Shown here one piece after another: positions 19,022-28,725 of a stretch of DNA of 64,000 nt. Position 1 is the stretch's first letter; each line of letters begins with the position of its first letter. The stretch comes from Streptomyces lincolnensis. Lineage in GTDB: Bacteria > Actinomycetota > Actinomycetes > Streptomycetales > Streptomycetaceae. A model generated the notes under the pieces. That model saw only the letters and a program-made list of their open reading frames with translations. It was not told where the DNA came from and did no database searches. The stretch is taken from assembly GCF_001685355.1 (NCBI RefSeq), contig NZ_CP016438.1, positions 1,488,001 through 1,552,000 of the forward strand. Direction: 5' to 3'. The position numbers and the translations under genes are program-made.

Positions 19022-19047
19022 GGTGACCGGTCCGGGCGTCGGTCACC
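19022..19047. terminator. stem-loop between convergent genes
   Basis: GGTGACCG / CGGTCACC, 8-bp stem with a 10-base loop, located between the alpha/beta hydrolase stop and the flavin monooxygenase stop, partly overlapping the latter. Likely bidirectional terminator. Confidence 0.55.
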
Positions 19048-20194
19048 CTCGGGCCGGGGCGGCTTTCCACTGTCGCAGCAGGGCGTTGACCGCCTGGCGG
19101 CCGGCGCGGTTGGAGCCGACGGTGGACTGGGACGGGCCGAACCCGACCAGGTGCACGCGGGGTTCGCCGGTCACCTGGGTGCCGCGCAAAGTGATCCCGC
19201 CGAGTTCGTTGCGCAGCCGCAGGGGGTCCAGGTGCGCCAGGGCGGCCTTGAAGCCCGTGGCCCACAGGATGACGTCGACCGGCGTGAAGGAGCCGTCCGC
19301 CTCGCGGACGCCGTCGGGCTCGACGGCGGTGAACATGGGGCGCCGCCGGAGTGCCCCGCGCTCCTTCGCCGCCAACGCGTACGGTGTCCAGGCCAGTTCG
19401 GTGTACGAGACGACGCTGCCGGTGGGCCTGCCCGCCTCGACGTCGGCGGTGACCTTGGCGATGATCTGGCGGCCCTCGACCTCGGGCGCGAACCCGCCCT
19501 CCCGGAAGACGGGTTCGCGCCGCGTGTACCAGTACGTGGTGGCCACCCGGGAGATCTCCTCCAGTTGCTGGAGAGCCGAGATGCCGCCACCGACGACGGC
19601 GACCCCGAGACCCGCGAACCGGTCGGCGGAGACGTAGTCGCGGGTGTGCAGTTGGAGGCCGGTGAAGGTCTCCTGCCCGGGGTAGTGGGGGCGCACGGGG
19701 TTGGTCCAGGTGCCGGTGGCGTTGATGACGGCCCGGGTGGTCCAGGTCCCCGCGCTGGATTCCACCGTCAGCTCTCCGTCCGGCCGGGCGTCCACAGGCC
19801 GTACGACACTGACGGTCACCGGTCTCAGGATCGGCAGGTCGGTCGCCTGCTCGAAGGCGGCGAAGTAACGCGGCACCGCCGTACGGCTGGGCTCGTCGGG
19901 GTCGACGGGCGGCTGCGGGAAGTCGGGCAGGTCGAAGATGCCGTTCACGGTGCTCATCCGCAGCGACTCCCAGCGATGCCGCCACGCCCCGCCGGCGGCC
20001 GGTTCGGCGTCGAGCACCACGAAGGTCCGGTCGCCGTCCGGGTTGGTCAGAGCGCTGGTGAAGCCGCGCCGCTTGAGGTGGTGACCGGCCGAGAGCCCCG
20101 ACTGCCCGCCGCCGATGACCACCACCGTCGCGCGCCCACCCGCTCGCTCGGGTTCGGCCCGTCCGTGTGCCGGGGCGAGGGTGTCAGCGTGCAT
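19043..20194 (-). CDS. flavin-containing monooxygenase (paralogue 1)
   Basis: A 383-residue group B-type flavoprotein. FAD Rossmann motif VVVIGGGQSGLSAG is near 24-37, a second NADPH-binding Rossmann motif VAVVGGGISALQQ is near the middle, and the family marks NATGTW and WATGF are present. It should oxygenate a nitrogen, sulfur or carbonyl centre of a small molecule using NADPH and O2. It is clearly paralogous to the enzyme at 27601-28725, sharing blocks such as YPGQETF and GPSxSTxGxNRAGR. ATG 20194 follows AAGGAGGGG. Apparently monocistronic; 150 bases upstream is the stop of the ferredoxin gene. Confidence 0.85.
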   Translation of the reverse strand: MHADTLAPAHGRAEPERAGGRATVVVIGGGQSGLSAGHHLKRRGFTSALTNPDGDRTFVVLDAEPAAGGAWRHRWESLRMSTVNGIFDLPDFPQPPVDPDEPSRTAVPRYFAAFEQATDLPILRPVTVSVVRPVDARPDGELTVESSAGTWTTRAVINATGTWTNPVRPHYPGQETFTGLQLHTRDYVSADRFAGLGVAVVGGGISALQQLEEISRVATTYWYTRREPVFREGGFAPEVEGRQIIAKVTADVEAGRPTGSVVSYTELAWTPYALAAKERGALRRRPMFTAVEPDGVREADGSFTPVDVILWATGFKAALAHLDPLRLRNELGGITLRGTQVTGEPRVHLVGFGPSQSTVGSNRAGRQAVNALLRQWKAAPARG

Positions 20195-24398: not shown

Positions 24399-24485
24399 GC
24401 CTTCCATCCTGACCCACGGCTCCCTGTTCAGCCACGAACCCCCGGCCGCGTCCCGCCACGAGGGGTCCACTTAGCGAGACGCCCG

Positions 24486-24515
24486 TTGACCATGGCCACG
24501 CCACATGGCTACGTT
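24486..24515 (+). promoter_or_regulatory. promoter of the sulfonate uptake operon
   Basis: TTGACC (24486-24491), an 18-base spacer and TACGTT (24510-24515). The predicted start of transcription, six to eight bases on, falls on or immediately before ATG 24523, so the leader peptide would be translated from a leaderless mRNA. No Shine-Dalgarno precedes that ATG, which agrees. Confidence 0.65.
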
Positions 24516-24522
24516 CAGCCGT

Positions 24523-24606
24523 ATGTTGCGTTCAGCCCTGCTCACCACGCGCGGTCACATCGACCTGCTGCGGGTGGCTTCCGCCGCGTGTCGCCGCGGC
24601 TGCTGA
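24523..24606 (+). CDS. cysteine-ending putative leader peptide
   Basis: A 27-residue peptide with the motif HIDLLRVASAACRRGC just before the stop. R-x-H-(I/V)-D-L-x-R-x-x-S-A-x-C is the signature of the 'putative leader peptide' group that actinomycetes carry upstream of sulfur assimilation and sulfur uptake operons. In mycobacteria a Cys-containing leader has been shown to regulate translation of the following genes in response to cysteine. Here two Cys codons (TGT at 24589-24591, TGC at 24601-24603) close the frame, 222 bases before the permease gene. The leaderless start and context support a real gene although it is far below usual length limits. Confidence 0.8.
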   Translation: MLRSALLTTRGHIDLLRVASAACRRGC

Positions 24607-24823
24607 CGCCTCGCGTCTCACGCGTCCTTCGCGCTTCTCGCGTCTCTCGCGTCCGAACAGCTTCTCCTCCAGCGCTCTTCAGCGTCTGATCCGCGCCGAG
24701 CACGCGTCCGTCCGTCTCATCCCCGACCGTCCCTGACGATCCGTCCGAAGGTCCGGTCCGTTCCTGAGGTCTGACGGCGCGCGCCCACGCGCGTCTCCCC
24801 CGCCGGCCGCTCTCCCCGTGGAG
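24607..24823 (+). promoter_or_regulatory. candidate cysteine-responsive attenuator leader
   Basis: The untranslated stretch between the leader peptide and the permease. It has iterated CGCGTC/TCTCGCGTC motifs at 24609-24653, a bulged hairpin GACG(G)CGCG...CGCGCGTC at 24773-24795, and a small hairpin CTCC-CCGT-GGAG (24812-24823) in which the right arm is the ribosome binding site for ATG 24829. Other CTCCCC tracts at 24794-24800 could also mask that site. Such pairing would let ribosome stalling at the leader Cys codons control permease translation. Structure was drawn by eye only. Confidence 0.45.
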
Positions 24824-24828
24824 CACCC

Positions 24829-25731
24829 ATGAGCATCAGCCATGCCCCACCCAGCTCTCACGAGCCCGATATTTCAGATATATCGGGCCCCGAACTCGCC
24901 AAGGGCGAGACGTCCGACCGGACCTCCCTCGCCCTCGAACCCCTCGTCCCCGCCTCTTCCCACCGCACCCGCGTCCCCCGCTGGCTGCGCCGCACCACCG
25001 GCCCCCTCCTGCTGCTGGCGTTGTGGCAACTGCTCAGCAGCACGGGCGTGTTGACCCCGGACGTGCTCGCCTCGCCGGGGCGGATCGCCGAGGTCGGGCG
25101 GGAACTCGTCGCCGACGGTTCGCTGCCCGGCGCCATGGCCACCTCGCTGCGCCGCGTGGCGGGCGGGCTGCTGCTCGGCACCGTCATAGGAACCGGACTC
25201 GCCCTGCTGTCGGGGCTGTTCCGGGTCGGCGAGGACATCGTGGACGCTCCCGTGCAGATGCTGCGGACCGTGCCCTTCGTGGGACTCATTCCGCTGTTCA
25301 TCATCTGGTTCGGGATCGGCGAGGCACCCAAGGTCGCCATCATCACGCTCGGCGTGACCTTCCCGCTCTACCTCAATGTCTACGCCGGGATCCGCGGCGT
25401 GGACGCCCAGCTGATCGAGGCCGGGGAGTCCCTCGGGCTCTCGCGGTGGGGACTCGTGCGGCATGTGATCCTGCCGGGTGCGCTGCCCGGAGCCATGACC
25501 GGCCTGCGCTACTCGCTCGGCATCGCATGGCTCGCGCTCGTGTTCGCCGAGCAGGTCAACGCGGACTCCGGCATCGGCTTCCTCATGGTGCAGGCACGGG
25601 ACTTCCTGCGCACCGACGTGATCGTGGTCTGCCTGATCGTCTACGCCTTCCTCGGCCTGCTGGCCGACTTCATCGTCCGCTCCCTCGAAAGGCTGCTGCT
25701 GCAATGGCGACCGACGTTCACCGGCCGGTGA
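24829..25731 (+). CDS. ssuC: ABC transporter permease, sulfonate/nitrate/taurine type
   Basis: A 300-residue inner-membrane permease of the SsuC/TauC/NrtB group with six hydrophobic segments from about residue 56. The coupling EAA loop reads EAGESLGLSRWGLVRHVILPGALPGAMTGLR (about 197-227). First structural gene of a three-gene uptake operon, overlapped by the ATPase start. ATG 24829 follows GTGGAG with six-base spacing. The N-terminal 50 residues are hydrophilic and include a DNA palindrome (24864-24888). The Cys leader upstream points to a sulfur source such as an alkanesulfonate rather than nitrate; exact substrate is inference. Confidence 0.85.
   Translation: MSISHAPPSSHEPDISDISGPELAKGETSDRTSLALEPLVPASSHRTRVPRWLRRTTGPLLLLALWQLLSSTGVLTPDVLASPGRIAEVGRELVADGSLPGAMATSLRRVAGGLLLGTVIGTGLALLSGLFRVGEDIVDAPVQMLRTVPFVGLIPLFIIWFGIGEAPKVAIITLGVTFPLYLNVYAGIRGVDAQLIEAGESLGLSRWGLVRHVILPGALPGAMTGLRYSLGIAWLALVFAEQVNADSGIGFLMVQARDFLRTDVIVVCLIVYAFLGLLADFIVRSLERLLLQWRPTFTGR
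24864..24888. promoter_or_regulatory. AT-rich palindrome inside the permease 5' end
   Basis: GCCCGATAT-TTCAGAT-ATATCGGGC: 9-bp perfect arms with a 7-base spacer, starting 36 bases into the permease coding region. Its AT-rich core is unlike the surrounding codons (it encodes D-I-S-D-I-S). May be an operator for an unidentified repressor or an mRNA hairpin close to the start codon. Confidence 0.5.
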
Positions 25732-26444
25732 CCACCACCTCGGCCGTACGGGTCGAGGGGCTGACCCGGGCCTTCGACGGCCGTGCCGTCATCGACGACC
25801 TCCGACTCGACGTCCGCCAGGGTGAGTTCGTCGCCCTGCTGGGCCGCAGCGGCTGCGGGAAGTCCACGCTGCTGCGCATCCTCGCCGGTCTCGACCGGGA
25901 CATCGAGGGCACCGTCCTTGTCCCGCGCCGCAAGGCGGTGGCCTTCCAGGCGCCCCGGCTGATGCCGTGGAAGAAGGTCTGGCGCAACGTCCTGCTGGGC
26001 CTGCCCGGCAAGCCCGAACGCGCCCTCGCCGACAGGGCCCTGGAGGAGGTCGCTCTCGGTCACCGTTCGGACGCCTGGCCCAAGACCCTCTCCGGGGGTG
26101 AGGCCCAACGCGCCTCGCTGGCCCGGGCGTTGGTCCGCGAGCCCGATCTGCTGCTGCTCGACGAGCCGTTCGGCGCGCTCGACGCCCTGACCCGGATCAA
26201 CGCCCAGCGTCTGGTGGGCGAGTTGTGGCAGCGCCGTGGCTGCGCGGTCCTGCTCGTCACGCACGACGTCGAGGAGGCCGTCCTGCTCGCCGACCGCGTC
26301 CTGGTGATGGACGACGGAGTCATCGCGCACGAGCAGGAGATCGACCTCGACCGCCCGCGCCACATCGCCGACCCCCGGTTCGGCGAGCTGCGCGCCGCGC
26401 TCCTGGAACGGCTCGGTGTCGACACGGCCGCCGAAGCCGCCTGA
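25704..26444 (+). CDS. ssuB: ABC transporter ATPase, sulfonate/nitrate type
   Basis: A 246-residue ATP-binding subunit. Walker A GRSGCGKS at 47-54, Q-loop FQAPRLMPWKKVWRNV, signature LSGGE at 129-133, Walker B LLLLDE at 149-154, and H-loop THDVEEAV. The short Q-loop region with APRLMPW is typical of SsuB/TauB. ATG 25704 overlaps the end of the permease gene by 28 bases; GTG 25728 is an alternative. Energises uptake with the permease and the lipoprotein that follows. Confidence 0.87.
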   Translation: MATDVHRPVTTTSAVRVEGLTRAFDGRAVIDDLRLDVRQGEFVALLGRSGCGKSTLLRILAGLDRDIEGTVLVPRRKAVAFQAPRLMPWKKVWRNVLLGLPGKPERALADRALEEVALGHRSDAWPKTLSGGEAQRASLARALVREPDLLLLDEPFGALDALTRINAQRLVGELWQRRGCAVLLVTHDVEEAVLLADRVLVMDDGVIAHEQEIDLDRPRHIADPRFGELRAALLERLGVDTAAEAA

Positions 26445-26523: not shown

Positions 26524-27549
26524 ATGCGACGTCGTCTCGTCCCCGCCGCGCTGCTTCTCCCGCTCGCCCTGCTGCTGTCCGCCTGCGGAGGCAGCTCGTC
26601 GGCCTCGACCGGCGACGGCACCGACGGCTCGGGCTCCCTCACGCTCGACGTCGGTGACCAGAAGGGGGGTTCGGAGGCCATCCTGCGGGCCGCCGGAGAA
26701 CTCGACCATCTCGACTACAAGATCAAGTGGTCCACCTTCACCTCCGGCCCGCCCCTGCTGGAGGCCGTCAACGCCAAGGCCGTCGACATCGGCGGGGTCG
26801 GCAACACCCCGCCGGTCTTCGCCGCGGGCGCCGGCTCGAAGATCACGGTGGTGGCCGCCTGGCACGGTACGTCCAAGGGCGACGCCATCCTCGTACCGAA
26901 CGACTCGAAGCTGACCGGTACCGCGCAGCTCAAGGGCCGGTCCGTCGCCGTGGCCCAGGGGTCCTCCGCCCACTACCAGTTGGTCGCCTCGCTGGAGAAG
27001 GCCGGGCTGAGCCTTGGCGACGTGAAGGTCAAGTACCTCCAGCCGGCCGACGCGCTGGCCGCGTTCACCTCCGGGAAGGTCGACGCCTGGGCGGTGTGGG
27101 ACCCGTACACCTCGCAGATCCTCAAGGGCGGGCAGGGCCGCGTGCTGACCACCGGCGACGGCATCACCAACGGGCTGACCTTCCAGGTGGCGGCGCCGAG
27201 TGCGCTCAAGGACGGGAAGAAGGCCGCGGCGATCAAGGACTACCTTGAGCGGCTGCGGCGGGCCTACACCTGGGTGGCCTCCCACCAGCAGGAGTGGGCG
27301 AAGGTCTGGGCGAAGGAGACCGGGCTGCCCGAGGACGTGGCGCTGGCCGCGGTCGAGCGCACGTACGCCGGCCGGGTTCCGGTGGCCGTCGACAAGCCGC
27401 TCATCGCCTCCGAACAGAAGATCGTCGACACCTTCGCCGAGCTGAAGCTCATCCCGAACAAGGTCGACTTCGGCGGCTTCACCGACACGCGGTTCAACGG
27501 CGGTCTGCCGCCGTCGACGACCGCGCCGCGTCCCTCGAAGGCGGGGTGA
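26524..27549 (+). CDS. ssuA: sulfonate-type ABC substrate-binding lipoprotein
   Basis: A 341-residue exported lipoprotein: hydrophobic signal with lipobox LLLSAC and lipidated C21, then an NMT1/SsuA-like solute-binding domain. GGVGNTPPVFAAGAGSKITVVAAW and GKVDAWAVWDPYTSQI are typical of SsuA proteins that bind aliphatic sulfonates. ATG 26524 chosen; GTG 26503 is in frame but would extend the signal sequence with polar residues. Last transporter gene, 51 bases before the flavin monooxygenase gene. Confidence 0.87.
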   Translation: MRRRLVPAALLLPLALLLSACGGSSSASTGDGTDGSGSLTLDVGDQKGGSEAILRAAGELDHLDYKIKWSTFTSGPPLLEAVNAKAVDIGGVGNTPPVFAAGAGSKITVVAAWHGTSKGDAILVPNDSKLTGTAQLKGRSVAVAQGSSAHYQLVASLEKAGLSLGDVKVKYLQPADALAAFTSGKVDAWAVWDPYTSQILKGGQGRVLTTGDGITNGLTFQVAAPSALKDGKKAAAIKDYLERLRRAYTWVASHQQEWAKVWAKETGLPEDVALAAVERTYAGRVPVAVDKPLIASEQKIVDTFAELKLIPNKVDFGGFTDTRFNGGLPPSTTAPRPSKAG

Positions 27550-27600
27550 CCTGGCCGTACACCGGGGAAGATGCCGGACCGCCGTACGGTTAGTAGAAAT

Positions 27601-28725
27601 GTGAACAACACGCGTGAGGTCGAGGTCGTCGTCATAGGCGCCGGGCAGGCGGGTCTGTCCAGCGCCTATCACCTGCGCCGCACCGGTTTCGAGCCGGAGC
27701 GGGACTTCGTGGTGCTGGACCACTCCCCCGGACCGGGCGGCGCCTGGCAGTTCCGGTGGCCGTCCCTGACGTACGGCAAGGTCCACGGGATGCACTCGCT
27801 GCCCGGCATGGAACTCACGGACGCCGATCCGGCGCGGCCGTCCTCGCAGGTCGTCGCCGAGTACTTCACGGCGTACGAGAGCGCCTTCGGCCTTCGGGTA
27901 CGGCGGCCCGTCGACGTGCGAGCCGTCCGGGACGGGGGCGAGGGCGGGCGGCTGCTCGTGGAGACCTCGGACGGCACCTGGTCGACACGGACGCTGATCA
28001 ACGCGACCGGCACCTGGGACCGGCCGTTCTGGCCGCGCTACCCCGGCCAGGAGACCTTCCGGGGACGGCAGCTGCACACCGCGCGGTATCCGGGGCCCGA
28101 GGCCTTCGCCGGGCGGCGGGTGGTCGTCGTGGGCGGCGGCGCGTCCGGGACGCAGCACCTCATGGAGCTCGCGCCGTACGCGGCCGCCACCACGTGGGTG
28201 ACCAGGCGCCCGCCGGTGTTCCGCGAGGGGCCCTTCACCGAGGACGTGGGCCGGGCGGCGGTCGCGCTCGTGGAGGAGCGGGTACGGCGGGGGCTGCCGC
28301 CGAGGAGTGTCGTCTCGGTGACCGGGCTGCCGCTCGACGACGCGGTGCGGCAGGCGATCGCGGACGGGGTCCTGGACCGGCAGCCCATGTTCGACCGGAT
28401 CACGCCCGACGGCGTGCAGTGGCGGGACGGGCGGCGCGTCGAGGCGGACGTCATCCTGTGGGCGACCGGCTTCCGGCCCGCCGTCGACCATCTGGCGCCG
28501 CTGAAGCTGCGCGAGCCGGGCGGCGGGATCCGCGCCGAGGGCACCCGCGCGGTCGCCGACCCGCGGATCCATCTCGTCGGCTACGGCCCGTCGGCGAGCA
28601 CCATCGGCGCCAACCGTGCGGGCCGCGCCGCCGTACGGGACATCAGGCGACTGTCGGCGGCAGAGCCTGCCCGCGCCGCGCAGCGGGCCGACACGGCTCG
28701 GCCGACCGTGTCGGTCGCCGCCTGA
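27601..28725 (+). CDS. flavin-containing monooxygenase (paralogue 2)
   Basis: A 374-residue FAD/NADPH oxygenase. FAD motif VVVIGAGQAGLSSA at 8-21, NADPH motif VVVVGGGASGTQ in the middle, and NATGTW plus WATGF as in the paralogue at 19043-20194. It sits 51 bases after the sulfonate-type transporter, so it is probably in the same transcript and may oxidise the imported compound or its product; unlike SsuD it is not a luciferase-fold desulfonating enzyme. Start is uncertain: GTG 27601 lies just before the FAD motif, while ATG 27571 adds ten residues. Confidence 0.82.
   Translation: MNNTREVEVVVIGAGQAGLSSAYHLRRTGFEPERDFVVLDHSPGPGGAWQFRWPSLTYGKVHGMHSLPGMELTDADPARPSSQVVAEYFTAYESAFGLRVRRPVDVRAVRDGGEGGRLLVETSDGTWSTRTLINATGTWDRPFWPRYPGQETFRGRQLHTARYPGPEAFAGRRVVVVGGGASGTQHLMELAPYAAATTWVTRRPPVFREGPFTEDVGRAAVALVEERVRRGLPPRSVVSVTGLPLDDAVRQAIADGVLDRQPMFDRITPDGVQWRDGRRVEADVILWATGFRPAVDHLAPLKLREPGGGIRAEGTRAVADPRIHLVGYGPSASTIGANRAGRAAVRDIRRLSAAEPARAAQRADTARPTVSVAA

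Follow-up and report, generated by a model that had tools for sequence, protein, structure and literature searches.

Mycobacterial leaderless polycysteine leaders were reportedly described by Canestrari et al. in 2020, together with translation attenuation in the cysteine genes of M. smegmatis. For mycobacterial cys leaders, Rho-dependent attenuation has been suggested as well, in its own words weakly, in the available part of PMC1262725, while the portion of the S. lividans reannotation at hand (PMC8079986) gives eight leader peptides, none of them Cys-dependent. Two NCBIfam profiles are relevant to such frames, NF042934 (cis_reg_atten, "putative leader peptide") and NF042936 (the Ms4527A Cys-rich leader).

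The leader considered here lies in a window of 64,000 nt (the whole stretch of DNA that was analysed; G000:C1:1488001-1552000 of a 10.3-Mb genome), and the features under discussion are collected in Table 1. Its 27 codons encode MLRSALLTTRGHIDLLRVASAACRRGC. Against NF042934, for which the cut-off is 27, the peptide scored 30.4 bits (29.1 when the whole genome was scanned); against NF042936 it reached 21.8 bits, below the cut-off of 45. It sits directly upstream of a sulfur-related operon comprising an SsuC-like permease, an ABC ATPase and a binding protein, a placement that is our own yardstick, taken from other copies of the family and not part of the NF042934 output. The leader is therefore one more member of a family already catalogued, and its kind is known. 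The best NCBIfam match of the permease was SsuC at 236 bits, which does not reach the equivalog cut-off of 347, so that sulfonate is a likely rather than a proven substrate. We would read the binding lipoprotein from its ATG at 26524 (the ORF was listed from GTG 26416). The monooxygenase-like frame directly 3' of the binding-protein gene shares its Pfam families (Pyr_redox_3, FMO-like) with a second frame of the window, at 19043-20194 on the minus strand.

Table 1. Features of the leader region and of the genes that follow it; positions are those of the window.
Feature	Position	Strand	Basis or remark
Promoter: -35 TTGACC (24486-24491), 18-nt spacer, -10 TACGTT (24510-24515)	24486..24515	+	Read from sequence
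Leader peptide frame, 27 aa, apparently leaderless; ATG 24523, TGA 24604-24606	24523..24606	+	NF042934.1 match; 77/77 orthologs
Motif LxxRxHIDLxRxASAxC, residues 7-23	24541..24591	+	Aligned leaders
Cys23 codon UGU, proposed regulatory codon	24589..24591	+	Conserved UGU in all sets
Cys27 codon UGC, not conserved	24601..24603	+	Cys in 51/78
C-rich, G-poor spacer, possible Rho-accessible region	24607..24828	+	222 nt; composition
Local CTCC-CCGT-GGAG hairpin at permease RBS: CTCC 24812-24815, GGAG 24820-24823	24812..24823	+	Present, 4-bp
SsuC-like ABC permease	24829..25731	+	PF00528; ATG start 24829
ABC ATPase, SsuB-like by position	25731..26444	+	PF00005; start codon not settled
NMT1/SsuA-like binding lipoprotein	26524..27549	+	PF13379, PF09084
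FAD/NAD(P)-binding monooxygenase-like protein, possible fourth operon gene	27571..28725	+	PF13738, PF00743

To place the leader in context we fetched 80 Streptomyces loci with related permeases. The three without upstream sequence (L076, L100 and L101) were left out, and the leader was found in all of the remaining 77. Its start codon is ATG in 77 of the 78 sequences (the window plus 77 loci) and ACG in L065. Conservation to this extent, along with the profile score, takes the 27-residue frame of the original prediction beyond chance. The promoter proposed there is also present and is backed by the comparison, although a strict sigma-70 scan did not list it: TTGAC occurs in 78/78 sequences and TANNTT, at -13 to -8 from the leader ATG, in 75/78. 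In the window the -10 element ends 7 nt ahead of the ATG and, because this distance is fixed, the transcript appears to be leaderless, with transcription starting at the leader ATG itself. With this qualification on the start, the profile match and the genes after the leader support the claim of a leaderless-type leader peptide in cis to a sulfonate-type ABC operon. Adjoining the -35 element upstream, CGAGAC.CC (24475-24485) is conserved in at least 60% of the 78 orthologs and is a possible regulator site. The two Cys codons that had been pointed out in the terminal region of the frame are true of the window, but only one of them is conserved: Cys23 is found in 78/78 sequences, whereas position 27 is Cys in 51, Arg in 23, His in 3 and Leu in 1.

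It is in the choice of codon that this cysteine stands apart. Among the 20 motif positions tabulated, the codon at position 11 after the histidine, which is Cys23 in the ssu leader, deviates most from background usage (3.27 bits vs 0.48 expected), and it is UGU in all 78 ssu sequences. We also assembled a Streptomyces-centred set of 138 distinct leaders (144 loci minus the unparsed L186, L222 and L226 and the duplicates L213, L218 and L225) and a class-wide set of 64 distinct leaders (68 loci minus the unparsed L276, L279, L294 and L309), which does not overlap the first set; the loci used here and for the Ms4527A-type leaders below are mostly the top-scoring entries of long, capped lists and not random draws. 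In the first set 137 leaders have Cys at position 11, encoded by UGU in 136 and by UGC in one (L221), whereas their remaining Cys codons, from motif position -5 to the end, comprise 139 UGC and 22 UGU. In the second, position 11 is UGU in 63/64 and UGC in one (L324), against 94 UGC and 33 UGU at the remaining Cys positions. The background share of UGU among Cys codons in genes is approximately 10-15%, as judged from long ORFs delimited by crude ORF calling and filtered on GC3 (48/474 in the ortholog loci, 11/78 in the window, 41/330 in the class loci and 47/319 in the loci of Ms4527A-type leaders).

Clustering at 80% nucleotide identity leaves this pattern in place. The 234 rows, which include L252 (in frame) and still contain 3 duplicates and one leader twice (G135: L220 = L240), fell into 70 clusters, with UGU at position 11 in 67, UGC in 2 and GGG in 1. 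Thus 67 of the 69 Cys-bearing representatives use UGU at this position, compared with 20/75 at other Cys positions (UGU 20, UGC 55). The cleanest evidence for the UGU rule is the contrast within the same leaders of two groups: in those of the cysteine dioxygenase (CDO) group position 9 is UGC in 31/31 and position 11 is UGU in 31/31, while in those of the MoaD group position 4 is UGC in 32/32 and position 11 is UGU in 32/32. Position 11 is likewise UGU in 29/29 Ms4527A-type leaders, from one other genus, but there the one-position contrast fails because other Cys codons are often UGU too (position 9, 26/26; position 7, 13/29; position 10, 9/20). The invariance of UGU cannot form part of a protein profile such as NF042934, the output of which also names no mechanism.

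These counts bear on the original prediction that cysteine scarcity stalls ribosomes near the end of the leader. A constrained cysteine codon is borne out, while "near the end" has to be narrowed to the UGU at codon 23; since the distance from UGU to stop varies between 0 and 12 codons among leaders, it is the UGU and not the stop that is the fixed point. The conserved UGU is, on this comparative evidence, itself the likely cysteine sensor codon. No statement on UGU was found in the available portions of the literature searched on such leaders, though Canestrari 2020 may mention it, and as far as that literature goes the UGU codon rule is the new part of our finding.

A single synonymous codon could also be retained for reasons other than decoding, for instance as part of a DNA or RNA element (a protein site or an RNA helix) that overlaps it. 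Other synonymous sites are frozen in the ssu group as well, and the base after UGU is C in 56/70 clusters, both of which would fit such an element. However, none of the flanking bases from -12 to +17 of the UGU exceeds 1.22 bits over the 70 clusters, as opposed to 1.71 to 2.00 within the codon, and the next-base context does not explain UGU, as only 22/175 Cys codons before C are UGU in ordinary ORFs; we consider an overlapping element improbable. Even less credible, to the point of being very nearly dismissible, is a trans-acting role for the peptide as a small functional protein, whose place before sulfur genes would reflect operon membership. Such a protein would fit the high conservation of the peptide in orthologs, but leaders before different operons have differing N-termini and tails with only the motif in common, and product function leaves the synonymous constraint on one codon unexplained. 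A trans-acting product should not distinguish UGU from UGC; sensing by the ribosome at the UGU is the simplest reading.

The remainder of the motif is constrained in a different manner. All 138 distinct leaders have Arg at motif positions -2 and 5, spelled by differing codons, and 135 of them have Leu at position -5. Because a protein profile selected the loci, and the finder demanded Asp at position 2 and favoured Cys, though no particular codon for it, at position 11, part of this motif conservation arises by construction. The motif arginines are thus constrained at the amino-acid level and the Cys at the codon level, as far as aligned sequences can tell. All of these residues lie within 16 positions of the Cys, the range from a stall site in which known arrest peptides act. 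A dedicated arrest peptide, in which the nascent chain itself would detect free cysteine or some other sulfur metabolite, with the Cys codon marking no more than the place where the arrest is set, would therefore find its tunnel residues conserved at the amino-acid level, with the same proviso on how the loci were chosen. A pure nascent-chain sensor would need Cys but not UGU, however, and the codon-level constraint favours decoding, which makes such a peptide distinctly unlikely as the whole explanation; a contribution of the nascent chain to stalling at the UGU may nevertheless exist.

Some nucleotide-level constraint extends beyond the UGU, group by group, and is not explained by the UGU reading. 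The leader itself is nearly invariant among ssu orthologs: over 75 sequences, a single codon accounts for at least 97% of cases at 16 of its 19 amino-acid-conserved positions, vs 15/96 in a block of the permease, and the rare codons TCA and GGT are each invariant (78/78). The cysteine dioxygenase group keeps the rare codons AGG (29/31), CAT (29/31) and TAT (24/31), and the sulfite reductase group TTG and AGT (12/12).

Two tRNA-Cys genes with anticodon GCA (L336 and L337, 74 and 75 nt) were found in the genome by an anticodon-loop pattern, and the same pattern with ACA gave no match there; genes whose anticodon loop differs could escape these patterns. The 3-kb locus around the second of the two genes gave no further tRNA. 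Since GCA was found and ACA was not, UGU would be read by G-U wobble as far as these patterns show, and such reading may be slower and more easily starved. In the available part of a quantitative theory of attenuator codons (PMC1183508), codon choice is explained by competing isoacceptors (selective charging); since the theory concerns such competition, it would not predict a strict choice between the two codons of one tRNA.

Downstream of the leader, the ssu spacers hardly align in either length (104-377 nt) or sequence. What they share is composition. The window spacer contains 101 C and 57 G, and C-over-G skew is positive in 78/78 ssu spacers, with a mean of 0.315 vs 0.079 in 186 control upstream regions taken from the same crude ORF calling with its GC3 filter. 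In the 80 nt after the stop, which for short spacers extends into the next gene, skew is positive in 137/138 leaders (mean 0.255 vs 0.061 in the same 186 control regions). A simple scan of 24400-24900 found no intrinsic terminator with a T-tract before the first gene, and Rfam gave no match at gathering score in the whole window. Because no intrinsic terminator was found, a Rho gene is present and the C-rich spacer is shared, we prefer Rho-dependent attenuation as the platform for the read-out; it is the least certain step of the proposal, and we put its chances a little short of even. Speaking against it, the C-richness of the spacer may reflect only low structure, about 10% of the ssu spacers exceed the 95th percentile of the controls over their last 130 nt, and the spacer of one paralogous leader (L007), at 44 nt, is short for Rho. 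Besides its Rho gene the genome contains a second Rho-like frame (L339, G000:C1:961480-962565) of 439 aa, scoring 485.8 bits, below the cut-off of 509.

The original prediction assigned the read-out to structure instead, with a ribosome stalled by cysteine scarcity opening a hairpin that hides the permease ribosome binding site. Of this mechanism the Cys leader peptide and the constrained Cys codon stand, whereas the hairpin finds no support as a conserved working part. The 4-bp hairpin exists in the window, but upstream of GGAG the sequence CTCC (65/78) is barely more frequent than its same-composition isomers (TCCC 58, CCTC 57, CCCT 47) and the stem is hardly ever extended (GCTCC 0/78, CTCCA 1/78), for which reason it was dropped as a conserved element. 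Similarly, the 222 bases described as structured leader are present as a spacer whose structure is unexceptional (folding z is -1.76 in the window, and the 40 sequences folded out of the 78 average -1.30, with one in four falling below -2). In the same 40 sequences the SD has a mean accessibility of 0.12 vs 0.15 after shuffling and ranks at 0.47 among shuffles, so that neither accessibility nor spacer folding gave a consistent signal as a conserved feature.

Translational attenuation as in the mycobacterial polycysteine leaders, where a stalled ribosome breaks a structure hiding the permease RBS, has to be weighed beyond this local hairpin. The available parts of PMC13236596 and PMC9031893, both citing Canestrari 2020, state this mechanism for the cysteine genes of M. 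smegmatis. In the predicted ensemble of the window, leader nt 19-24 (codons 7-8) pair with the SD at P 0.84, and CCGTGGAGC is found around the SD in 46/78 sequences. Over 38 of the 78 sequences, though, this long-range pairing shows a weak excess (mean 0.35 vs 0.21 with shuffled leaders; mean rank 0.39), and we retain it as a rival rather than as a conserved feature. The spacers argue in the same direction: in the 100 nt after the stop only 4/190 alignment columns are at least 90% conserved in the ssu loci, compared with 39/135 in Ms4527A-type leaders (L239-L267), and near the permease conservation is mainly that of the SD and the start. On balance translational attenuation is possible at this operon, but we lean against it.

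Taken together, the leader is probably a cis-acting cysteine sensor of the NF042934 family, likely leaderless, that senses at the UGU and is read out through the C-rich spacer. In this proposal the transcript would begin with the ATG of the leader, and the 27 codons would be translated by a ribosome. As it arrives at codon 23, the LxxRxHxDLxRxASAx segment would occupy the exit tunnel, and the UGU would be decoded by Cys tRNA with anticodon GCA via G-U wobble. With ample Cys-tRNA, the ribosome would pass the UGU and release at UGA, leaving a long C-rich spacer exposed to Rho, the action of which would lower transcription of the permease. With scarce Cys-tRNA, the ribosome would wait at the UGU and cover the start of the spacer, and the operon would be read.

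The leader is one of several in its own genome, where nine NF042934 copies exceed the cut-off (one of them without Cys) and one falls just below it. These are the best 10 of the 24 matches with E no higher than 10, and E is at least 0.5 for the remaining 14. The genes next to the nine copies encode a ThiS-family protein, a cysteine dioxygenase, two luciferase-like monooxygenases, a sulfite/nitrite reductase, the SsuC-like permease, a flavin reductase, a rhodanese and a glutathione-transferase-like protein, so that in this genome the family is set mostly before sulfur-related genes. The copy without Cys (L009, G000:C1:8763607-8763660), which precedes the glutathione-transferase-like gene about 1.1 kb ahead of another leader (L003), is the sole one of the 138 leaders to lack Cys at position 11; it keeps the motif, with Gly (GGG) in place of the UGU Cys. 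The sub-threshold copy (L010, G000:C1:2258355-2258411; 22.9 bits) keeps the UGU and precedes a sugar-type periplasmic binding protein. A long inverted repeat, GGTGAGACGACGAC...GTCGTTGTCTCACC, is visible by eye in the region upstream of this copy.

NF042934 matches were present in 41/41 Streptomyces genomes searched, with 3 to 13 in each. Across the class, at least 229/394 genomes have a match over the cut-off, and at E 1e-4 at least 233/394 genomes and at least 83/137 genera do; these are lower bounds, as at most 22 candidates per genome were scored. In a phylum-wide draw 10/149 genomes matched at E 1e-3, four of them Streptomyces. Leaders of the Ms4527A type were matched in 29/31 genomes of one other genus, and the protein encoded after one of these leaders (L220) looks, by eye, similar to the sulfite/nitrite reductase next to L004.

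We also raise, tentatively and with rather more doubt than confidence, the idea of a class-wide ribosomal sulfur sensor, in which a nascent LxxRxHxDLxR would condition the ribosome and a single UGU, wobble-read by tRNA-Cys(GCA), would report cysteine supply, or the sulfur-dependent modification state of that tRNA, to many separate operons of one cell. If so, a single codon and not a run of codons might control some nine leaders in one genome without a repressor. The UGU rule also provides a handle on what the leaders sense and on where the ribosome stops: since UGC encodes the same peptide, this one synonymous base change would tell codon sensing apart from nascent-chain sensing.

The proposed sensor resembles several described systems in part. 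The classical Streptomyces trp and leu attenuators, according to the available text of PMC1262725 and PMC8079986, likewise have a leader peptide with codons for the amino acid concerned and are often leaderless; they differ from the present case, where no terminator hairpin with a T-tract was found and where one conserved rare codon takes the place of a run. The Rhodobacterales cysS motif uORFC-8-2, as presented in the available part of PMC8632094, is likewise a short frame with regulatory Cys codons and proposed ribosome-mediated control, but it has two tandem Cys codons, with UGC dominant, and a U-run consistent with an intrinsic terminator, none of which is found here. The mycobacterial leaderless polycysteine leaders of the Ms4527A type carry several Cys, in contiguous codons, whereas in the ssu leader Cys23 and Cys27 are separated, only Cys23 is conserved and the score stays below the NF042936 cut-off; the two nevertheless share the same motif frame (RRHVDFKRVC.CCC in the mycobacterial leaders), with UGU at the same position.
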